This document shows positions 4,774 to 36,574 of a stretch of DNA of 64,000 nucleotides, piece by piece. Source of the stretch: Blastochloris viridis (GTDB lineage Bacteria > Pseudomonadota > Alphaproteobacteria > Rhizobiales > Xanthobacteraceae). The stretch spans positions 186,001 to 250,000 of the forward strand of contig NZ_CP012946.1 in the NCBI RefSeq assembly GCF_001402875.1, read 5' to 3'. A program made the translations under genes and the position numbers. Under the pieces are notes generated by a model. It made no database searches. It was not told the DNA's origin and saw only the letters and a list, made by a program, of their open reading frames with translations. Numbering within the stretch: position 1 is the first letter of the stretch; each line of letters begins with the position of its first letter.

Positions 4774-5658
4774 TCAGTGCCGGGTGGCGCGCCAGACGCC
4801 GATGGCGGTGAGCGCCATGCCGGCGAGCTGGATGCCGGTCAGCGTTTCGCCGAACAACAGGTAAGCCTGCACCGCGGCGGCCGGCGGCACCAGGTAGATC
4901 AGCGCTGCCGCCCGCGCCACCGCACCCCTGCGGATCAGCAGCAGCAGCAGCGCCACCGCGCCGATCGAAATCGCCAGCACCGACCATGCCATCCAGCCGA
5001 CGGTGACGAGGTTCACCTCGAAGCGCATCTCCTCCATCAGCATCGCGGCCGGAACCGTCGCGATCAGCGCTCCGACATATTGGATGACGGTGGTGGTGCG
5101 GAGGTCGCCGGTGGCGACGAAGCGCTTCTGGTACAGCGTGCCGAGGGTGACCGACAGCATCGCGGCGACGTTGATCGCGAGCGGCACCACCACCGCGCCG
5201 AGTTGGCCGGAGTCGGTGGCGGCGATCTTCGGCGTCACCACCAGAACGATGCCCAAGAAGCCGAGCGCGATGCCGAACCACTGGCCGGAGCGGATGCGCT
5301 CGCCGGTCAGCCAGGGCGCCAGCACCGCCGTCATGATCGGTTGCAGCGCGGCGATCAAGGCGGAGATGCCCGCCGGCACGCCGTTGGCGATTGCCCACCA
5401 AACGCCGCCAAGATAGATGGCGTGGATCAGGATGCCGGAGACGAGGCCGTGGCCGATCTCGGCCGGGCGCCGCGGCCACGGTGCCGAAACCAGCAGGGCA
5501 AACCCGGCGAGGCACAGTCCGGCCAGGGTGTAGCGCAGGGCGAGAAAGGTCAGCGGGTCGGCATAAGGCGCGATCGCCCGCGCCACGATCCAGCCGGTCG
5601 ACCAGATCAGGACGAAGGTGAAGGGGGCGAGCCGGTTGAGCGTCGGGACGGGGGTCAT
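4774..5658 (-). CDS. DMT-superfamily (EamA) transporter
   Basis: A 294-residue protein made almost entirely of hydrophobic segments, about ten predicted membrane spans, with the two-repeat EamA layout. The N-terminal half contains FVLIWSTGWIVARAIAPYADP. The PIMTAVLAPWLTGERI segment near residue 95 and the VQAYLLFGETLTGIQLAGM segment near 265 are the repeat-end signatures of drug/metabolite transporters. Such proteins export amino acids, nucleobases or other metabolites; the substrate cannot be inferred. The gene is transcribed toward mcd, and the 99-bp gap between its stop and the mcd start makes co-transcription uncertain. Confidence 0.88.
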   Translation of the reverse strand: MTPVPTLNRLAPFTFVLIWSTGWIVARAIAPYADPLTFLALRYTLAGLCLAGFALLVSAPWPRRPAEIGHGLVSGILIHAIYLGGVWWAIANGVPAGISALIAALQPIMTAVLAPWLTGERIRSGQWFGIALGFLGIVLVVTPKIAATDSGQLGAVVVPLAINVAAMLSVTLGTLYQKRFVATGDLRTTTVIQYVGALIATVPAAMLMEEMRFEVNLVTVGWMAWSVLAISIGAVALLLLLIRRGAVARAAALIYLVPPAAAVQAYLLFGETLTGIQLAGMALTAIGVWRATRH

Positions 5659-6086
5659 CGGGGGGCTTGGGGTACGGGACGCTTGCCTTGTTCATAGCCG
5701 ATCGGCAGGCTGCGGAAAACCGGCGTCGTCTTAAACCAAAGGTGAGGCAGGCCGCCGTTTTCGCGCCGGGGGCACCATCAGGTGGGTTTCGCTCTTGCAA
5801 AACCGGCCGGTACCGACGAATTGATGACCGATTGCGTCCGGTACCGCGGGCTCCGCGGCGCTCCGGGCCGTCGTCGGACGGTCATGCGTTCATCGCGTGG
5901 CGCGGCGATTCGACGGTTGTCGCATCGCCGATTGCCGGCCTGTTCGGACGCCCGGTTGGTCGACCGGGTGGACCTGGTTTGTTCGGATCGGGTTCGCGCA
6001 TGTCGAGTTCGCCGGCTGTAACCGGTCCACCCACCGCTGCTCCGGTGGGCCGGAAGCCGGAGCCTGCGGGCGGACAGGGAGGCGTG
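5659..6086. other. Divergent intergenic region, no gene called
   Basis: This 428-bp region separates the minus-strand EamA gene from the plus-strand YihY/BrkB gene and must hold both promoters. The BrkB frame is open back to 5667, but the extra residues are arginine- and proline-rich and unlike any family. An ATG at 6000 would add 29 low-complexity residues and cannot be excluded. I see no repeat or RNA here. Confidence 0.4.
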
Positions 6087-26682: not shown

Positions 26683-27594
26683 ATGGCTGGACTATCGATG
26701 CGACACCTACGCTATTTCGAGGCGCTCGCCCAGCATGGGCATTTCGGGCGTGCGGCCGAGGCCTGCGCCATTTCGCAGCCGGCGCTGTCGTTGCAGATGA
26801 AGGAGCTGGAAGACCTGCTCGGCGCGCCGCTGATCGAACGCGGCACGCGGCAGATTCGGCTGACCGGTCTGGGCGAGGTCTTTGCCGAGCGCGCGCGCGA
26901 CATCCTCAGGGCGGCGGATGACCTTGGCGACCTCGCCCGCGCGTCGCTCGGCCCGCTGCGCGGGCGTTTTCGCGTCGGCATCATCCCGACGGTCGCCCCG
27001 TATCTGCTGCCAGCGATCATCCAGAGCCTGACGGAGCATTTTCCGGGCCTTGACGTCAGGCCGCGCGAAGCGGTGACGCAGACGCTGGTGGAGGGGCTGA
27101 TCGAAGGCCGGCTGGACACCGCCATAGTCGCATTGCCGTTGTCGGAGCCGAGCCTGCACGAGCACGCGCTGTTCGAGGAAGAGTTCGTTCTGGTGCGCCC
27201 GAAGGAGGATGCTTCAAAGCCGGTGCCCAATCCGGAAACGCTGCGCGAGATGCGCCTTCTTCTGCTGGAGGAGGGGCATTGCTTCCGCGATCAGGCGCTG
27301 TCCTTCTGCAAGATGCCGTCGTCGATGACGCGCAATCTCATGGAAGGCAGTTCTCTCACCACCTTGGTGCAGATGGTCGGCGCCGGTATCGGCGTCACCC
27401 TGATCCCGGAAATCGCCGTCGCGATCGAAACCCGGTCCGCGGCGGTCTCGGTGGCGCGGCTCGCGCAGCCGTGTCCGACACGTAGGCTGGGCATGGTCTG
27501 GCGCAAAACCACCCCGCTGTCCGAGCAGTTCGCGTCCGTCGCCGAGGCCGTACGTCAGTCCGCTCTGGCCCATTTGGCGTTATCGGCCGGATGA
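26683..27594 (+). CDS. oxyR: Hydrogen-peroxide-sensing LysR-family regulator OxyR
   Basis: OxyR activates peroxide defence genes after disulfide formation. The 303-residue protein has the LysR helix-turn-helix at residues 6-65 (LRYFEALAQHGHFGRAAEAC ... SQPALSLQMKELE). The redox pair is Cys200 and Cys209 in EEGHCFRDQALSFC, matching the Cys199/Cys208 arrangement of E. coli OxyR. Divergent pairing with katG makes katG the likely target. The start at 26683 could instead be the ATG five codons later. Like katG it has lower GC than its surroundings. Its stop is 33 bp before the right-hand inverted repeat. Confidence 0.95.
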   Translation: MAGLSMRHLRYFEALAQHGHFGRAAEACAISQPALSLQMKELEDLLGAPLIERGTRQIRLTGLGEVFAERARDILRAADDLGDLARASLGPLRGRFRVGIIPTVAPYLLPAIIQSLTEHFPGLDVRPREAVTQTLVEGLIEGRLDTAIVALPLSEPSLHEHALFEEEFVLVRPKEDASKPVPNPETLREMRLLLLEEGHCFRDQALSFCKMPSSMTRNLMEGSSLTTLVQMVGAGIGVTLIPEIAVAIETRSAAVSVARLAQPCPTRRLGMVWRKTTPLSEQFASVAEAVRQSALAHLALSAG

Positions 27595-28123: not shown

Positions 28124-29485
28124 TTAGACCCGGCCGGACAGCCGCTCCATCGCGGCGCGGAAGCGGGTGCGGATGCGGTCGCGATCGCGGTGGCGGCCCT
28201 CGCGCACCAGCTGGCGGCCGCCGACCCAGACATCGCGCACCGCCGCCGCGCCCGCCACGAACACCCAGACGTCGAGCACGCGATCGCCGCTTCGCCCGGC
28301 AAACGCGGGATGGCCGGTGTCGAGCACCACGACGTCGGCCGGCGCGCCGGCGGTGATGCCGCCGACCGGCTGCGCCAGCGCCTGATTGCCGCCGAGGCGC
28401 GCCAGGTCGAACAGCGCCCGGCCGGCGGAGGCGTCGGGCCGGACCAGTTGCGGCCGCGCGCGGTTGCGCTGGCGCTGGCTGTATTCCAGCGTCCGCAACA
28501 GGCCGGCCGGCGAGGTGCAAAGGTTCGAGCCGGTGCCGACCCCGATCCGCCCGCCCTCGTTGAGGAACGGCACGGCGTCGAACGCCGCCTCGCCGCGGTG
28601 CGCCTCCGCCACCGGGCACAGCCCGGCGACCGCGCCCGCCTTGGCGAGCCGCAGCCGCTCCTCGGCCGACAGCTGGAGCGGATGGATCAGACACCAGCGC
28701 TCGTCGACCGCGACCCAGTCGAGCAGATAGCTCGCCGGCCGCGCCCCGGTGACGGCGAGGCACTCGGCGACCTCGCGGTCGCTCGCGGCGAGCTGGATGT
28801 GGATCGGGCCGGCGGCGGCCTCGCGCGCCAACCTGCGGATGTCGCCGATCGTCACGGTGCGCAGCGAGTGGAAGGCGAGGCCGAGCCGGGTGCCGGGATA
28901 GAACGCCACGGTGAGCCGGGTCGCGCGCATCAGCTCGGCGAACCCGTCGAGGTCGTGGAGGAAGCGGCGCTGGCGCGGGGTGGCCGGGCACGGCCCGAAG
29001 CCGCCATGGACCTGCAGCACCGGCAGCAGCGTCAATGCGATGCCGGTCTGCTCGGCGGCGGCCACCACCTGGGCGTTGATCTCGGCAACGTCGGCATAGG
29101 GCCGCCCGTTGGGATCGAGGTGCAGGGTCTGGAACTCGCCGGCGGCGGTGAAGCCGGCCTCCAACATCTCGGCATAGGCCTGCGCGGCGATGGCCTCGAC
29201 GTCGTCCGGGTTCAAAGCGGCGACGACGCGCGCGGCAAGTTCGGCAGCGGCGGCCTCGCCGTCGCGCTCGAGCAGGCCGGCCAGGGCGCGCTCGATAACG
29301 CAGGAGTGCAGGTTGGGCAGGCCGGGCAGCGCCACGCCGCCGATGCGCTCGGCCCCGTCGGCTGCCCCGCCGGGTTCAACCGTGGCGAAGTGCCCATCGG
29401 CGACGGTGACGAGCACCTCGCGCTGCCACCCGTCCGCGGTGAGCGCCGTTTCGAACAGAAGTTTGCGCGACGACGTCCCGAACAT
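28124..29485 (-). CDS. Formimidoylglutamate deiminase (HutF)-like protein lacking metal ligands
   Basis: A 453-residue amidohydrolase-fold protein that aligns by pattern with HutF, which hydrolyses N-formimino-L-glutamate in histidine breakdown. Shared segments include LPGLPNLHS, AYAEMLEAGFTA, ALTLLPVLQVHGGF, RRFLHDLD, WCLIHP, GLCPVAEAHRGE and LLRTLEYSQRQRNRAR. Key positions have changed. The family HxH is His60-Ser-Cys62. The second HxH is His229-Ile-Gln231, and the Glu after it is Ala234. The VHATH stretch is IHPLQ. The catalytic GSDS Asp is Gly319 (GTGSN). The loop that contains FWTWR in HutF is missing. It is probably a pseudoenzyme or a divergent metal-free protein. No other hut gene is nearby. 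The ATG at 29485 has AAGGTGG upstream. It ends the minus-strand run from the VanX-like gene. Confidence 0.78.
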   Translation of the reverse strand: MFGTSSRKLLFETALTADGWQREVLVTVADGHFATVEPGGAADGAERIGGVALPGLPNLHSCVIERALAGLLERDGEAAAAELAARVVAALNPDDVEAIAAQAYAEMLEAGFTAAGEFQTLHLDPNGRPYADVAEINAQVVAAAEQTGIALTLLPVLQVHGGFGPCPATPRQRRFLHDLDGFAELMRATRLTVAFYPGTRLGLAFHSLRTVTIGDIRRLAREAAAGPIHIQLAASDREVAECLAVTGARPASYLLDWVAVDERWCLIHPLQLSAEERLRLAKAGAVAGLCPVAEAHRGEAAFDAVPFLNEGGRIGVGTGSNLCTSPAGLLRTLEYSQRQRNRARPQLVRPDASAGRALFDLARLGGNQALAQPVGGITAGAPADVVVLDTGHPAFAGRSGDRVLDVWVFVAGAAAVRDVWVGGRQLVREGRHRDRDRIRTRFRAAMERLSGRV

Positions 29486-29613
29486 AGCCACCTTCGTGGA
29501 CCATGCAGAGATAACCTGCCGGCAACTCCTAGGCGAGTGTCTTTTCGGCGGCGGCCGGCGTCGCGCGAGTTGGTGAACGAAAGGTCGGTCCGGCCGGCGC
29601 CGCGGCGCGGCCG

Positions 29614-31221
29614 CTACAACCGGATGCGGCGCTCGTAGAGGTCCGGCAGGTCGTTCTCGAACAGCACCACGTCGCCAGCGCGCAGATTGGCCTTGAGCCA
29701 GCCCATCGCGTCGGCAAACGTCTCGCACGGCACCACCGGGCGGTCCGGCGCGGCGCGGCGGAACGCGTCGATGAAGCTGTCGATGCGGTCGGGGATCACC
29801 GGCAGCAGCACGTCGACGTGGTCGGCCGCCACCCCGCCGAGCCGGGCGTGCTCCTCGTCGTGCATGGTGCCGAGCTCGACCATGCCGGGCGTCACCAGGA
29901 TGCGCCGGCCGGTTTTGCCGACGATGAGGTCGAGCGAGGCCAGCGCCGCCGCGAACCCGACCGGGTTCGAATTGTAGGCGTCGTCGACCACGATCGAGCC
30001 GTCGGGCTGCGGCTTCACCTCCAGGCGGTGGGCGATCTGCGGCGTCGATTTCAGCGCGGTGACGAGGTCGTCGGGGTCGGCGCCGAGCGCGCACGCCGCC
30101 GCGAACGCCAGCGCCATGTTGCCGGCGTGGTGCAGGCCGTGCAGCGGCGCCTTGAGGGCGTAGGATTTGCCCTCCCACACCACGTCGGCCTCGACGCCCT
30201 GGCGGCTTTCGCGGGTGGCGAGCACCTTGAGCCGGGCCTCGGTCTCCGGCCCGACCACGATCACCTTGTCGGTGCCGCCGGCGAGGAACGCCTTGGCCGC
30301 GTCGAATCCGAGCACCTGGCCGGCGAGCACGGCGATGCCGCCGCGGGCGCGCGCCGCTGCCGGCAGCTCGAACTTGGCGCGGGCGACGGTGTCGAGCGAC
30401 TTGAAGCGTTCGTAATGGGCCGGGCCGATGGCGGTGACGATGGCGAGATCGGGCGGCGCCAGCCTGCACAGCCGCTCGACCGAGCCCGGTCCGTAGGCGC
30501 CCATCTCGCAGACGAAGAAGCGGTGGTGCGGCGCGAGCTGCTCGCGCACGATGCGGGCGATGCCCATCGGGGTGTTGATGCTGCCAGGCGTCACCAGGGT
30601 CGGCGCCTGCATCGACAACAGGTGGCCGAGGATGTGCTTGACCGAGGTCTTGCCGAACGAGCCGGTGATGCCGACGGTGGTCGGCTTCAGCGTCTGGAGC
30701 TTGTGGTGGGCCTCGGTCCAGAACCGCCGCTGCACCCGCGCCTCGAACGGCTTCAGCATCAGATTGCCGGCGATCAGCGCGAACGGAATCGCCTGCACCG
30801 CGGCGATCCAGGCCAGCAGCGGCAGTCCGGCGGCGACAATGGCGAGCACCACCGCCGCCTGCACCGCGCCGGCGGCGATCAGGATGCGGCGGGCGCGCTC
30901 GGTGATCGCCAGCGTCTTCTTGGCGACGCGGCGCGGATCGGACTCGCGCAGGCCCAGCACCACGAACGTCACCGCGCCGAGCACGGCGCCGATGGCGGCG
31001 ACCAGCTCGTCCTCGGGCGCGTAGAACGCGATGCCCAGCACCGCCATCGCCACGGTGGCGCGGATGTCGACGGTGAAGGTGCGCAGCAGCCAGCCGAGAA
31101 AGCGGGCGCCGTCGTATTCCTCCTGCTGGAAGACGTGGAGATAGGTCAGCGCGCGCCGCCAAGCGAAGAAGGCGAAGCCGCCGGCGAGGACGAACTGGGC
31201 AATCACGGTCAGGACAACCAT
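29614..31221 (-). CDS. Membrane-anchored Mur ligase family protein, MurF-like
   Basis: This 535-residue protein joins an N-terminal membrane domain of about five spans (residues 2-20, 52-90, 113-155) to a complete Mur ligase. The ligase has the P-loop GITGSFGKTS (184-193), a GSINTPMGIARIVRE segment and FVCEMGAYGPGSVERL. AIVTAIGPAHYERF and a MurF-type C-terminal segment VDDAYNSNPVGFAAAL follow. MurF adds D-Ala-D-Ala to UDP-MurNAc-tripeptide in the cytosol; cell-wall MurF is soluble, so this is a paralogue with another acceptor or a membrane-tethered one. Nearby Ddl and VanX-like genes suggest D-Ala-D-Ala as substrate. It overlaps the hydrolase gene by 13 bp; ATG 31221 has an AAGGGG site. Confidence 0.82.
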   Translation of the reverse strand: MVVLTVIAQFVLAGGFAFFAWRRALTYLHVFQQEEYDGARFLGWLLRTFTVDIRATVAMAVLGIAFYAPEDELVAAIGAVLGAVTFVVLGLRESDPRRVAKKTLAITERARRILIAAGAVQAAVVLAIVAAGLPLLAWIAAVQAIPFALIAGNLMLKPFEARVQRRFWTEAHHKLQTLKPTTVGITGSFGKTSVKHILGHLLSMQAPTLVTPGSINTPMGIARIVREQLAPHHRFFVCEMGAYGPGSVERLCRLAPPDLAIVTAIGPAHYERFKSLDTVARAKFELPAAARARGGIAVLAGQVLGFDAAKAFLAGGTDKVIVVGPETEARLKVLATRESRQGVEADVVWEGKSYALKAPLHGLHHAGNMALAFAAACALGADPDDLVTALKSTPQIAHRLEVKPQPDGSIVVDDAYNSNPVGFAAALASLDLIVGKTGRRILVTPGMVELGTMHDEEHARLGGVAADHVDVLLPVIPDRIDSFIDAFRRAAPDRPVVPCETFADAMGWLKANLRAGDVVLFENDLPDLYERRIRL

Positions 31222-31997
31222 CCGAGCCCCTTCAGGAAGGTCTGGATCTGGAACAGGGTTTGCGGCCGGGCCGAGCCCAGCACGGTGAAGTGGTCCTGGC
31301 GCTCCAGGAGCACCAGCTTGGAGGCGGGGATCAACGCGTTGAGGCGCTCGCCGAGCTCGGGCGGGGTGTCGGTGTCGGCGCTGCCGTAGATCAACAGCGT
31401 CGGCGCCCGGACCTGGCGCGCCACCTCGGCCAGGTCCTCGCGGACGGCGGCGAGGAACACCGCGCGCAGCGCGCCGGCGCCGGCATAGTCGGCGCTGCCG
31501 AAGCGGGCGCGCAGGCGCTCGCGCGCCGGCCCTTCGGGCACCAACAGCTTCAGCGCCTTGAAGGTGCGCACCTTGAGCCACATCCACGCCCGCTGCTGCG
31601 GCGAGCGCCGCCGCTTGAGGCCGGCGGCGGCGATCAGGCACAGCGCGTCGACCAGATCGGGGTGGCGGGCGGCGAGCTGCAGCCCGACCCGCGTGCCGAA
31701 CGAGTGGCCGATCCACACCCGCCGGCCGGGCGGCAGGGTGGCCAGCCAGCCGGCGACGGCGTCGGCATAATCGGCGGTGGTCCACGTCGCCGGCGGCGGC
31801 GGGCTCGACCCGAAGCCGGGAAAGTCGATCAGGGTGGAGCGGCCCCAGCGGCGCGCGCTCTCGGCCAGCGGCGCCATCGCCGCGCCGGAGTGGCCCCAGC
31901 CGTGCGCCCAGATCAGGTGCAGCCCGCCCTCGCCGGCATCGCCGAGATGGACGAGGTGGACCGGCGCGCCGGCCATCACAACGGTTTCAGCGGTCAT
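31209..31997 (-). CDS. Alpha/beta-hydrolase fold protein
   Basis: A 262-residue soluble hydrolase. The oxyanion segment is WAHGWGHSG (about residues 30-38) and the nucleophile elbow is GHSFGTR (near residue 98). The acid is probably in LLIYGSADTDTPPE and the catalytic His in ERQDHFTVL. Substrate is unknown; esters, amides or thioesters are all possible. It lies 12 bp downstream of the VanX-like gene and overlaps the Mur ligase gene by 13 bp, so it is almost certainly co-expressed with both and may act on the same product. Confidence 0.88.
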   Translation of the reverse strand: MTAETVVMAGAPVHLVHLGDAGEGGLHLIWAHGWGHSGAAMAPLAESARRWGRSTLIDFPGFGSSPPPPATWTTADYADAVAGWLATLPPGRRVWIGHSFGTRVGLQLAARHPDLVDALCLIAAAGLKRRRSPQQRAWMWLKVRTFKALKLLVPEGPARERLRARFGSADYAGAGALRAVFLAAVREDLAEVARQVRAPTLLIYGSADTDTPPELGERLNALIPASKLVLLERQDHFTVLGSARPQTLFQIQTFLKGLGWLS

Positions 31998-32009
31998 GAG
32001 GTGGCCTTA

Positions 32010-32816
32010 TCACGGCGCCAGCACCGGCCGGTAGAAGGCGCGCGCGCCGTTGCCGACCACCGCCGCCCACAGCTTGGTGCCGAGGTCGAAATGCCAGTAT
32101 TCTTCAGCGTAATTGGTGAAGCCCTCCGCCGCCATGGCGTGGGTGAGGATGCGGCGGGCGAGCAGGCGGGGGTCGTCGGCGCGGACCCGCCCGGCGTCGA
32201 ACTCGCGCTCGAAGAAATCGGTCTCGCTGCGCTCGCCGGCATGGTCGAAGCCGGCGCCGAAATCGAGCAGCGTGTCGGTCTCGCGCAGCCGCAGCACCAG
32301 ATCGACCGCGCCGCCGGTCAGATGCGGCGGCCACGAACCCGGATCGTTGAGGTCGAACCCGCGCGGGTCGGCGATGAAGGTCGCGACCTCGTGGGCGATC
32401 TGCACGTCCGGCCAGGACGGGTTGTCGCGCCGGACCTTGCGCTCGTAGAAGGTCCACAGCCCGCGCTGGGTGAGGAGCGGCCGCCAGCCGTCGTGCAGCC
32501 ACAGCGCCAGGCCGTGGGGGGCCAGCGCGCGCTCGACCCGTATCAGCGCCTCGGCCACGCCCTGGCGGACCAGCAGGTCCGGGATGGCGCCCTCGATCGG
32601 CCCGCCATAGGGCGGGTTGCGGCCGTCGCGAATCGCGTAATAGCATTCGCCGACGAGGCCGAAGGCGCGGGCCTCGACCAGCGGCTCGCGGCTGCGGCCG
32701 TCGGTGCCGTCGAACGGCACCTGGCGCGCGCGAACCATGGCGCCCCGCCCGACCTTGGGAACGGGGCGGCTGGCGTCGGGATGGCTTTTCAGCCAAACGG
32801 GACTCACTATTGCCAT
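32010..32816 (-). CDS. D-Ala-D-Ala dipeptidase, VanX/DdpX type (M15)
   Basis: A 268-residue zinc peptidase of family M15D, which cleaves D-Ala-D-Ala dipeptide. The zinc ligands appear as His165 and Asp172 in HLTGGAVD and His242 in EYWH. The catalytic Glu239 sits three residues before His242, the VanX spacing. RPLLTQRGLW corresponds to the substrate-binding arginine region. There is no signal peptide, so it should act in the cytosol. The ATG at 32816 starts MAIVSPVW; the frame is open to 32927. The gene is divergent from a D-Ala-D-Ala ligase 125 bp away and heads a four-gene minus-strand run. There is no VanR/VanS or VanH, so resistance is not implied. Confidence 0.88.
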   Translation of the reverse strand: MAIVSPVWLKSHPDASRPVPKVGRGAMVRARQVPFDGTDGRSREPLVEARAFGLVGECYYAIRDGRNPPYGGPIEGAIPDLLVRQGVAEALIRVERALAPHGLALWLHDGWRPLLTQRGLWTFYERKVRRDNPSWPDVQIAHEVATFIADPRGFDLNDPGSWPPHLTGGAVDLVLRLRETDTLLDFGAGFDHAGERSETDFFEREFDAGRVRADDPRLLARRILTHAMAAEGFTNYAEEYWHFDLGTKLWAAVVGNGARAFYRPVLAP

Positions 32817-32941
32817 GACTTGAGCGTTGTAGGACGACGGCTTGGCCCGGGCAAAACAATCTTGGCCCGGAGGCCGGTTCGGACGCGGCCGCGGAGCACG
32901 GCCGCCATCGTCGCCGACGCGGAGCATTGGGGGACGTCGTC

Positions 32942-34141
32942 ATGAAAACGCGGGTCGCGGTGTTGTTCGGCGGGCGCTCGCCCGAGCACGACGTGTCGAT
33001 CGTCACCGGGCTTCAGGTGCTGGACGCGCTCGACCAGGGCCGGTTCGAGGCGTTCCCGGTCTATCTCTCGACCACCGGGCGCTGGTTCGTCGGCGAGCAG
33101 CTCCGCGAGCGCAGCTTCTACCTGCCCGGCCCCGACGCCGAGAAGAAGCTGACCCAGGTCACGCTCGATCTGACGCCGAACGACCTTGGCCACGGCGTGC
33201 TGCTGCCCAAGGACAAAGGCGGGCTGTTCTCGCGGGCGAAGGAGATCGCCTTCGACGTCGCGCTGCCCGCCTTCCACGGCCTGATCGGCGAGGACGGCCA
33301 GATCCAGGGCGCATTCGAGACCGCCAACGTGCCCTATACCGGCATGCGCACCCTGGCCTCCGCCGTGCTGATGGACAAGGCGGCCACCAAGCGCCTGCTG
33401 GCCGAGACCCGCATTCCGCTGCTGCCGTGCGAGGTGATCGACCGGCCGGCGACCGGCATGCTGCCCTCGCTCGCCGCGCTGGCCGAGCTGACGAAGGCGC
33501 TGGCCTTCCCGGTGATCGTGAAGCCGGCCCACCTCGGCTCCTCGATCGGCGTCGCCAAGGTGGCCACCGTCGAGGAACTGCGGGCGGTGCTGCCGCCGAT
33601 CTTCAAGCTCGACAACCAGGCCATCGTCGAGCCGTTCGTCGAGAACCTGGTCGAGTACAACATCGCGGTGGCCGGCTTCGAGGGCAAGGTGCGCACCTCG
33701 GCGGTCGAGCGGCCGAAGCGGGCGTCCGACCTGCTCGACTTCAAGCAGAAATACCTCTCCGGCGGCGCGAAGGGGGGCAAGTCCCCCGGCGCCCGCAGCG
33801 AGGGCATGCTGTCGCTCACCCGCGACATCAACCCCACCTTGCCGGACGGGCTGGCGGACAAGCTGCGCAAATGGGCGGAGCAGACCTTCCTGGCGGTGGG
33901 TGGCACCGGCACCCCGCGCATCGACTTCCTCGGCAATGCCGAGACCGGGGCGGTGTTCCTCAACGAGGTCAATCCCTGCCCCGGCTCGTTCGCGTTCTTC
34001 CTGTGGGAGGCGGCGGCCGAGCCGCTGTTGTTCACCGAGCTGCTGTCGAAGCTGATCGACGAGGCCATCGCCCAGCACCGCGTCCGCCAGATCCCGGCCG
34101 ACCCGACGCTGGTCGAGGCGCGGCTGTTTCCGCGGCGGTGA
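32942..34141 (+). CDS. ddl: D-alanine--D-alanine ligase
   Basis: An ATP-grasp enzyme that joins two D-alanines for peptidoglycan precursors. The 399-residue protein starts MKTRVAVLFGGRSPEHDVSI with the conserved GGxSxEHxVS loop. It contains FHGLIGEDGQIQGAFE, YTGMRTLASAVLMDKAATK, the ATP-grasp segment FPVIVKPAHLGSSIGVAKV, a YNIAV strand and the metal-binding RIDFLGN ... FLNEVNPCPGS. It is somewhat longer than average Ddl (300-370). The ATG at 32942 has GGGGG about 10 bp upstream. It is isolated from the division/cell-wall cluster and divergent from the VanX-like gene, so synthesis and hydrolysis of D-Ala-D-Ala are encoded back to back. Confidence 0.95.
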   Translation: MKTRVAVLFGGRSPEHDVSIVTGLQVLDALDQGRFEAFPVYLSTTGRWFVGEQLRERSFYLPGPDAEKKLTQVTLDLTPNDLGHGVLLPKDKGGLFSRAKEIAFDVALPAFHGLIGEDGQIQGAFETANVPYTGMRTLASAVLMDKAATKRLLAETRIPLLPCEVIDRPATGMLPSLAALAELTKALAFPVIVKPAHLGSSIGVAKVATVEELRAVLPPIFKLDNQAIVEPFVENLVEYNIAVAGFEGKVRTSAVERPKRASDLLDFKQKYLSGGAKGGKSPGARSEGMLSLTRDINPTLPDGLADKLRKWAEQTFLAVGGTGTPRIDFLGNAETGAVFLNEVNPCPGSFAFFLWEAAAEPLLFTELLSKLIDEAIAQHRVRQIPADPTLVEARLFPRR

Positions 34142-34996: not shown

Positions 34997-36574
34997 TCAA
35001 CCGTCCCGCCCGGCCCCCGCGCCGAGCCTTGCCAGCCGGCGCAGATCGAGCGCGCCGGTGAGATGCACCACCGCGCCGTAGACCGCGGCGCCAAGCGCGA
35101 TCAGCCCGGCCAGCACGGCGGCGCGCGCCGCGGTGCCGCCCGCCAGCGGTGCCGCCAGCGTTTGCGCCGCGGTCAATGCCACCGCCATCGCGGCGGCGGC
35201 GGCGACGATCTTGGCCAGCGCCACCCTGGCGGGATGGTCGAGCCGCAGCCGGCCGCGCCAGGCCTCGGCCCCGGCCAGCGTCGCCGCGTTGAGCCAGCCC
35301 GACGCCGCCACCGCCGCCGCCACGCCGCTGGCGCCGAACGCCGGCAGCAACAGCACGCCGCCGCCGATGGCGACGCCAAGCCCGATCAAGGCAGTGGTCA
35401 TCGGGGTCGCGGTGTCGCCGCGGGCATAGGCGCCGGCGGCGAACACCTTCTCCAGCACGTGACCGGGCAGGCCGAACGCCAGTGCCGCCAGCACCGCGGC
35501 GGTGGTGGCGCTGTCGGCGGCATCGAACGCGCCGCGCTCGAACAAGGTGCGGGCGATCGGCCCGGCCAGCACGACCAGGCCCACCGCCGCCGGCAGCGCC
35601 AGGCCGGCGGCAAGCTCGACCGCGCGCGACTGCGCCGCCACCAGCGCCACGCCGTCGTCGGCGCGGGCGTGCGCCGCCAGCACCGGCACCAGCACGCCGG
35701 CGACGACCGCCGACACCACGCCGAGCGGCAGCTCGTAAAGGCGGTCGGCGTACCACAGATATGACGCCGCCCCCGGCACGCCGGAGGCGACCGCCACCGC
35801 CGCCATCAGCTTGAGCTGGGGAATGCCGGCGGCGATCAGCCCCGGCCCGGCCCGGCGGAAGAACCGCCTGACCTCCGGCGCCAGCGACGGCGTGAGACGT
35901 CCCACCGGCGGCTCGGCAAGCCGGGCCGCCGCCACCGCCACCACCGCGACCTGCACCGCCCCCGCCGCCAGCACCGCCGCCGCCAGCAGCGCACCGGCGG
36001 CCGGCTGGCCGGTGAGGCCGCCGCCCAGCGCCGCCGCCAGCGCCGCGATCATCACCAGATTGAACGCGATCGGCAGGCCGGCCACCGCGCCCACCCGGCC
36101 CTCGGCGTTCAGCACCCCGGCCAGCACTGCCACCACCCCCGCCAGCACGGCGTAGCCGACCGTCCAGCGCCCCCACGTCACCGCCAGCGCGAAGCGGGCG
36201 TCGTCCGGCGCGAAGCCCGGCGCGATCAGGCCGATCAGCTGCGGCATCGCCACCGCCGCCACCGCCGCCGCCGCGGCCAGCAGCACGGCGAGGCTCGCGA
36301 GCACGGCGCCGGTGAAGGTGCGGGCGGCGGCGGCGCCACCCTCGGCGCGCAGGCGAAGCCAGGCCGGCACGAACGCCGCGTTGAGCGCGCCCTCCGCCAG
36401 CAGGCGGCGGGCGAGGTTGGGCAGCTGGAACGCGGCGACGAAGGCGTCCGCCAGCGGCCCCGCGCCCAGCACCGCCGCCATCAGGGCATCGCGCGCAAAG
36501 CCGAGCAGGCGCGACAGCAGCGTGAAGGCGCCGACGGTCGAGACCTTGCGGGCGAGGGATCTGGAAGCGGCCAT
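34997..36574 (-). CDS. murJ: Lipid II flippase MurJ (MviN)
   Basis: MurJ flips lipid II across the inner membrane. The 525-residue protein has about 14 membrane spans. It opens with the MurJ signature VSTVGAFTLLSRLLGFARDALMAAVLG and contains FQLPNLARRLLAEGALNAAFVP and the central SYLWYADRLYELPLGV. The conserved arginines and the LFERGAFDAADS segment are also present. The start codon at 36574 gives MAASRSLARKV. Alanine content is extreme even for this family. Position next to the ddl locus adds to the cell-wall theme, though murJ is essential and its placement may be incidental. Confidence 0.95.
   Translation of the reverse strand: MAASRSLARKVSTVGAFTLLSRLLGFARDALMAAVLGAGPLADAFVAAFQLPNLARRLLAEGALNAAFVPAWLRLRAEGGAAAARTFTGAVLASLAVLLAAAAAVAAVAMPQLIGLIAPGFAPDDARFALAVTWGRWTVGYAVLAGVVAVLAGVLNAEGRVGAVAGLPIAFNLVMIAALAAALGGGLTGQPAAGALLAAAVLAAGAVQVAVVAVAAARLAEPPVGRLTPSLAPEVRRFFRRAGPGLIAAGIPQLKLMAAVAVASGVPGAASYLWYADRLYELPLGVVSAVVAGVLVPVLAAHARADDGVALVAAQSRAVELAAGLALPAAVGLVVLAGPIARTLFERGAFDAADSATTAAVLAALAFGLPGHVLEKVFAAGAYARGDTATPMTTALIGLGVAIGGGVLLLPAFGASGVAAAVAASGWLNAATLAGAEAWRGRLRLDHPARVALAKIVAAAAAMAVALTAAQTLAAPLAGGTAARAAVLAGLIALGAAVYGAVVHLTGALDLRRLARLGAGAGRDG

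Follow-up and report, generated by a model that had tools for sequence, protein, structure and literature searches.

A locus in a 64,000-nucleotide stretch of the Blastochloris viridis genome (contig NZ_CP012946.1, positions 186,001 to 250,000; hereafter, the window) encodes a predicted membrane-embedded MurF-type ligase, mMurF, next to an alpha/beta hydrolase (ABH) and a D-Ala-D-Ala ligase (Ddl) of a distinct type. Judged from sequence comparisons, the module formed by these three genes very likely replaces the usual MurF and Ddl, and the locus is probably an alternative, membrane-based MurF/Ddl system in which the pentapeptide is completed on lipid-linked N-acetylmuramic acid (MurNAc)-tripeptide. 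The genes, by position within the window, are as follows.

32942-34141, + strand: Ddl-type ligase (module-type D-Ala-D-Ala ligase), 399 amino acids, PF01820 and PF07478
31209-31997, - strand: ABH, 262 amino acids, core partner of the ligase
29614-31221, - strand: membrane MurF-type ligase (mMurF), 535 amino acids, PF08245 and PF02875
30688..31221, - strand: mMurF membrane domain, residues 1-178, five predicted helices
29617..30687, - strand: mMurF ligase domains, residues 179-535, catalytic positions kept
32010-32816, - strand: M15 dipeptidase (VanX/DdpX-like), 268 amino acids, PF01427, optional neighbor
About 28124-29485, - strand: HutF (formimidoylglutamate deiminase-like), 444 bits on TIGR02022 against a cut-off of 413

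A preliminary description of the locus had named Ddl, dipeptidase, hydrolase, Mur ligase, and HutF, and Pfam and NCBIfam profile matches recovered all five as stated; it had also placed the first three genes of the minus-strand run 12 bp apart or overlapping, which agrees with the measured distance of 12 bp between the M15 and ABH genes and the 13-bp overlap between the ABH and mMurF genes.

The case for replacement begins with the genome itself, a single contig of 3,724,841 bases that is rated 100% complete. In a genome-wide search for murF, the window mMurF scores 200 bits and five other matches score 91 bits or less; these five lie at the Mur ligases of the division cluster or at a fifth Mur-domain gene, FolC by our own reading. 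The corresponding search for Ddl returns the window gene at 108 bits and seven other matches at no more than 46 bits, which we read as other ATP-grasp enzymes. Profile searches of the whole genome thus found neither a second MurF-type enzyme nor a second clear Ddl. The division cluster, with names assigned from translations, runs ftsI, murE, mraY, murD, ftsW, murG, murC, murB, ftsQ, ftsA, ftsZ, lpxC, and when read through it has no murF in the murE-mraY interval and no ddl in the murB-ftsQ interval; in Escherichia coli K-12, both murF and ddl lie inside this cluster. Since no other MurF or Ddl was found and the division cluster has gaps at these two places, the window Ddl and mMurF are likely the housekeeping pair of the organism, and the same only-copy argument supports a MurF-like role for mMurF as far as homology can indicate one. 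The preliminary description had stated that the lack of any other murF or ddl would mark these as housekeeping enzymes, and had leaned toward an accessory system; with neither gene detected by the whole-genome searches or in the division cluster, that reading falls.

The distribution of the two MurF types among other genomes points the same way. In a sample of 100 genomes from the same family, 88 have a murF match above the cut-off, and four have only the type of match that starts at profile position 65: three from the genus of the window (G000, G044, and G074) and one from another genus (G012), whose match has the same place and score as that in the genome of locus L052, where Ddl, M15, hydrolase, and ligase genes lie together. 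The other eight genomes under the murF cut-off comprise two full-length matches just below it (G024 and G064), three fragments (G030, G097, and G098), and three without a clear match (G017, G068, and G096). Ddl scores above its cut-off in 32 of the 41 family genomes searched. G017, rated 100% complete, has a canonical Ddl yet matches neither MurF type, possibly on account of an assembly gap.

Across 389 alphaproteobacterial genomes with completeness of at least 95%, mMurF (called at an E value of 1e-80 or better) occurs in 16, of which 14 show no canonical MurF, their best murF E values of 4.1e-59 to 9.5e-70 being in the range given by membrane ligases in the host genomes of related loci. murF exceeds its cut-off in 357 of the 389 genomes, including 355 of the 373 without mMurF (the remaining 18 fall below), and the association has a Fisher P value of ~3e-15, to be read as descriptive and not as a test on independent samples because the genomes are related. 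In the phylum of L100, an Oscillospiraceae metagenome-assembled genome (MAG), the membrane type is present in 18 of 299 genomes at 459 to 635 bits, with the match starting at positions 1 to 6 in 16 of them and at 87 in two, and 17 of these 18 have no second match at an E value of 1e-40 or better. All but one of the other 281 genomes of this phylum have a match; among the matches listed, these score at most 267 bits, start at ~145 to 180, and are of the canonical type. Hence, the two MurF types are close to mutually exclusive in two surveys, in each of which the top three or four candidates of a genome were scored, so that a weak second gene could be missed.

A scan of a genome-contig collection with alignment A1 yielded at least 559 confirmed relatives, and the best 80 loci were analyzed for conserved neighbors. 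An ABH gene lies upstream of the ligase on the same strand in 76 of the 80, with a gap of 40 bp or less in 74 of these 76 and an overlap in 41; it is missing from L074, L089, L096, and L112, and in L074 and L112 the ligase begins within the first ~350 bp of the stretch. A Ddl gene occurs in 69 loci (on the opposite strand in 32, downstream in 29, and upstream in 8), and ABH and Ddl occur together in 68. The M15 dipeptidase, in contrast, was found in 4 of the 80 related loci in addition to the window, and HutF in none, so the conserved unit is limited to Ddl, ABH, and the membrane ligase; the conserved linkage anticipated in the preliminary description therefore holds for Ddl, hydrolase, and ligase and fails for the dipeptidase and HutF. 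We rejected HutF as a member of the system and demoted M15 to an optional neighbor; the window HutF is probably a bystander. In the distant alphaproteobacterial locus L062, the M15 gene (4883-5689, - strand) overlaps the 3' end of ddl and does not lie upstream of the hydrolase as it does in the window, which is a second kind of link between M15 and the module Ddl.

The record titles of the 80 loci name Alphaproteobacteria, Desulfovibrio, Clostridia, Bacteroidales, Chloroflexi, one Synergistaceae, one Bacilli, one Omnitrophota MAG, and others, most of the loci coming from MAGs whose taxon labels may be wrong. Because both the ABH-ligase linkage and the Ddl linkage recur across phyla, the clustering exceeds chance. 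Setting aside division-cluster genes and the module's shadow frames, no family of proteins recurs in more than 11 of the 80. The ABH-mMurF pair sits between murB and ddl, with ftsA beyond, in seven loci (L054, L056, L057, L058, L060, L066, and L076); and in the five loci whose stretch holds both murE and mraY (L054, L055, L056, L060, and L076), the gaps between these genes are 551, 487, 488, 977, and 544 bp, respectively, too small for a murF of ~1,350 bp. Pairwise distances of ligase, hydrolase, and Ddl correlate at 0.90 to 0.93 over 60 sequence sets, a value reached in 0 of 500 permutations, with shared species history contributing. The Desulfovibrio ligases (L050 and L059) are 51 to 53% identical to the window ligase, and L050 falls within a mostly alphaproteobacterial clade of the tree, which suggests transfer of the whole module for Desulfovibrio.

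The best NCBIfam model for mMurF is murF (TIGR01143), at 199 to 200 bits against a cut-off of 288.6, and the match is confined to profile positions 65 to 403 of 418. Positions 1 to 64 are unmatched, and in place of the N-terminal UDP-MurNAc-binding domain of MurF, residues 1 to 178 hold predicted membrane helices. The preliminary description had counted about five N-terminal spans, a number borne out by a high-confidence structure model with five helices, although a strict hydropathy scan marks just three in the window sequence. Two conserved loops of the membrane domain, Q32..R40 and K101-R112, contain basic residues, and the model would put them at the cytoplasmic face of the membrane. The Mur middle and C-terminal domains carry the catalytic residues of MurF: in an alignment with canonical MurFs, the P-loop (G187-T192), E239, H269, K283, D413, and N417 are all kept. 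mMurF has E522, N523, and D524 where the 21 aligned canonical MurFs carry a C-terminal KGS. In the tree, 20 canonical MurFs of relatives and the E. coli MurF group separately from the mMurFs; with its long outgroup branches, this tree bears on that separation and not on whether mMurF arose once. Among named isolates, Blastochloris sulfoviridis has the closest homologue, at 79% identity. A match of the membrane domain to UbiA (E value, 0.0084) is under the cut-off and was treated as chance, and the fold search, which used the whole protein, barely covered the membrane part.

The window Ddl scores 100 bits on PF01820 and 108 bits on PF07478, both above the cut-offs, and conserves the ATP-grasp and omega-loop residues K194, S200-S201, E238, and K270-Y271; matches listed in a search of relatives with this protein are, where named, annotated as Ddl or hypothetical. 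On the NCBIfam subfamily model TIGR01205, it reaches 225 bits against a cut-off of 245.65, which several module Ddls from Clostridia and Bacteroidales exceed. The second-substrate loop of the window Ddl has the motif PGS....LW, as do 64 of 65 module Ddls, versus PG[MF]T..S in all 30 canonical Ddl loci of relatives that were read; these 30 are all high-scoring, the lower-scoring Ddls of seven further genomes being unread, and the loop is a common feature of the canonical Ddls read and not a defining one of D-alanine--D-alanine ligases. On these sequence features, the module enzyme appears to work like a Ddl while forming a distinct subfamily. Module Ddls also carry, behind the omega-loop KY, a stretch rich in Gly and Lys whose length varies (about residues 270 to 290 in the window Ddl). 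The window ABH has the fold and catalytic triad of alpha/beta hydrolases, the predicted triad (S99, D208, and H236) being invariant across 76 sequences, as are H32 and D170.

Taken together, these features suggest a scheme in which the Ddl, ABH, and mMurF module would take the place of the division-cluster ddl and murF. The module Ddl would produce D-Ala-D-Ala, and mMurF, sited at the membrane, would use ATP to activate the carboxylate of the MurNAc-tripeptide stem and then join the dipeptide to it. The most likely acceptor would be tripeptide linked to undecaprenyl pyrophosphate (lipid I or lipid II), its pyrophosphate held by the conserved basic loops of mMurF. In that case, the lipid carrier step would precede, and not follow, completion of the pentapeptide. 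Editing of this substrate, either stem or dipeptide, is the probable role of the hydrolase. We lean toward a lipid-linked acceptor because the UDP-binding domain is lost, basic loops take its place, and there is a precedent in MurT. Of the membrane-associated acceptor other than UDP-MurNAc-tripeptide that the preliminary description had proposed, what survives is a putative lipid-linked MurNAc-tripeptide of the ordinary wall pathway; a separate accessory acceptor does not. More tentatively, the scheme might extend to a large multi-phylum set of bacteria, which would complete the pentapeptide on the lipid carrier after MraY by means of a membrane-embedded MurF, with a serine hydrolase proofreading or trimming the stem or dipeptide.

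Several observations weigh against this scheme. No MraY alignment column separates 7 module from 21 canonical sequences, so that MraY gives no sign of having adapted to a tripeptide precursor; both mMurF and the window Ddl score below their NCBIfam family cut-offs; and the change from KGS to acidic residues in mMurF, together with the altered second-substrate loop of Ddl, leaves room for a somewhat different dipeptide. The scheme also leaves the role of the hydrolase unexplained. Moreover, the two kinds of MurF can coexist: 2 of the 16 alphaproteobacterial genomes with mMurF also have a canonical match (G185 at 2.2e-112 and G385 at 4.2e-96), 1 of the 18 membrane-type genomes in the phylum of L100 (G803) has a second match that may be a canonical-type MurF, and among 50 host genomes that were selected from the 80 for breadth and for the length of their loci and searched for murF and Ddl, about 13 carry, or may carry, a canonical-type MurF, the membrane type being alone in about 37.

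These 13 genomes comprise six with a match above the murF cut-off, one just under it (G508, 270 bits), and six (G510, G522, G530, G531, G533, and G535) with fragments or long forms that were counted as canonical type. Twelve of them have one strong Ddl, which is of the module type; G533 alone has a second strong Ddl. In G490, G503, G506, G507, G508, G517, and G525, the module Ddl scores 180 to 236 bits, and the next matches listed score 45 to 84 bits, the highest being in G507. Of nine canonical-type MurFs read from the 12 single-Ddl genomes, eight keep KG[SA], and that of G517 has none. Where the sole strong Ddl is of the module type and shares a genome with a KG[SA]-bearing MurF, it must therefore serve a normal MurF, and the simplest reading of these sequences has ordinary D-Ala-D-Ala as the product of the module Ddl. 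The Ddls of G511, G522, and G535 lie apart from the ligase yet are still of the module type, unlike the second Ddls present in G496, G497, and G533.

Other explanations account for parts of this evidence. mMurF could perform the ordinary MurF reaction on soluble UDP-MurNAc-tripeptide, its membrane domain merely anchoring it beside MraY for substrate hand-over; the conserved catalytic core, the lack of a fixed difference in the MraY of module genomes, and the position of the mMurF gene within the division cluster in several genomes would all fit, but mMurF is missing the UDP-binding domain of UDP-dependent Mur ligases, and its conserved basic loops at the modeled cytoplasmic face would be needless for a plain anchor, which makes this explanation rather unlikely. 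The module might instead make and attach a dipeptide with an altered or masked C terminus, which the hydrolase would unmask, and both enzymes would on that account have lost the motifs PG[MF]T..S and KGS, which we take to bind the dipeptide carboxylate. The near-uniform PGS....LW loop, the END of mMurF, and a ligase-tied hydrolase with its triad intact are in line with such a dipeptide; we nevertheless find it improbable, given the 12 of 13 dual-MurF genomes with a single strong, module-type Ddl and the KG[SA] kept in most of the canonical-type MurFs read from these genomes.

That D-Ala-D-Ala is put on another membrane molecule by an accessory system, with the pentapeptide made otherwise or not at all, would accommodate the membrane domain and the minority of genomes in which a canonical MurF coexists. 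We consider this very improbable in view of the near mutual exclusion in two surveys and of a genome with no other MurF or clear Ddl, yet with ftsI and the remaining division cluster present by our own reading. Little credence at all can be given to a VanX-type cassette that would serve to turn over D-Ala-D-Ala or confer tolerance of glycopeptides. An M15 gene does adjoin Ddl, and its product has an intact active-site pattern (HLTGGAVD, EYWH, and DGWRP; H..G.A.D and E.WH are presumably the metal and catalytic pattern of VanX/DdpX-type M15 dipeptidases); no signal-like stretch was seen at its N terminus, as judged by eye. Actinobacterial vanHAX clusters likewise have murF-like genes nearby (PMC8698665). 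Against such a cassette stand the rarity of M15 among the related loci and the NCBIfam VanA and VanX equivalog scores (97 of 775 bits and 36 of 320 bits, respectively), both far under the cut-off.

Comparison with known systems places mMurF near MurF and MurT without equating it to either. With MurF, it shares the middle and C-terminal Mur domains, the P-loop, the E/H/K catalytic positions, and the D[DE].YN.N motif, and it is the sole MurF-type enzyme of its genome; it differs in its five predicted membrane helices, END for KGS, a sub-cut-off score, a clade separate from the canonical MurFs tested, and its linkage to a hydrolase. MurT, the Mur ligase homologue of lipid II isoglutaminyl synthase, also lacks the UDP-binding domain, and its substrate is lipid II (PMC6113224). 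In that study of GatD/MurT, the lipid II substrate explains the loss of the N-terminal domain, the UDP-MurNAc-binding domain being unnecessary and likely to clash with the membrane, and the pyrophosphate in MurE and MurF is located where the N-terminal domain meets the middle one. MurT, however, has a short, flexible N terminus, pairs with the amidotransferase GatD, and amidates D-Glu (PMC6113224), whereas mMurF is MurF-like, has a membrane domain, and is partnered by ABH and Ddl; it has no match to DUF1727 at an E value of 0.001, its C-terminal domain being PF02875, and no GatD partner, an alpha/beta hydrolase occupying that place.

The actinobacterial vanHAX clusters resemble the window in grouping a Ddl-family ligase, an M15 dipeptidase, and a murF-like gene (PMC8698665), but they are described there as resistance clusters with VanH and often VanRS, whereas no second copy of the window enzymes was found and M15 is an optional neighbor. 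The wider family (MurC-F, archaeal Mur alpha-delta, MurT, CapB, CphA, and FPGS) has the Mur middle and C-terminal domains in common, and none of the 12 members named in the portion seen of a 2025 survey of that family corresponds to a MurF that is embedded in the membrane and linked to Ddl and a hydrolase (PMC11915815). Three further papers added little: the kind of MurF in Hyphomonas neptunium could not be discerned from a muropeptide study of that species (PMC10945521), which was not used; PMC5187514 had no bearing on MurF; and PMC4153887 lists a MurF-like archaeal protein in a table of core proteins of methanogenesis. Hyphomonas itself is mixed for mMurF, which is present in 9 of 29 genomes, one of them with a partial match. 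A literature search, with preprints and most subscription journals outside its reach, found no description of a membrane MurF or of the three-gene module. What appears to be new is how the enzyme is built, that canonical MurF and Ddl are replaced, and that a hydrolase is tied to the ligase; the name MurF for the homologues is not new, and many of them are already labeled MurF by automatic database annotation.

The MurF reaction is regarded as a soluble step universal to wall synthesis, and the enzyme as a drug target. Many genomes, including some of gut Clostridia and Alphaproteobacteria, show no canonical MurF; they have a membrane enzyme from another clade, to which a hydrolase is tied, and this hydrolase points toward a new wall-precursor reaction. 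Should the acceptor be lipid-linked, the order of precursor assembly would differ in these species, inhibitors of soluble MurF might fail on them, and their nucleotide precursor pools would need rereading; completion on the lipid carrier would, if true, mean that a pathway whose sequence is taught as invariable can run its steps in another order.

Other features in the window are as follows.

34997-36574, - strand: MurJ (lipid II flippase), PF03023, 281 bits
24355-26631, - strand: peroxidase-like open reading frame, KatG from reading of the translation
26683-27594, + strand: LysR-family regulator, divergent from the peroxidase-like open reading frame

MurJ, the peroxidase-like gene, the LysR gene, and a PfkB gene were considered as module members and rejected, none belonging to a protein family common to at least 5 of the 80 loci. 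The window MurJ lies ~0.9 kb away from Ddl.

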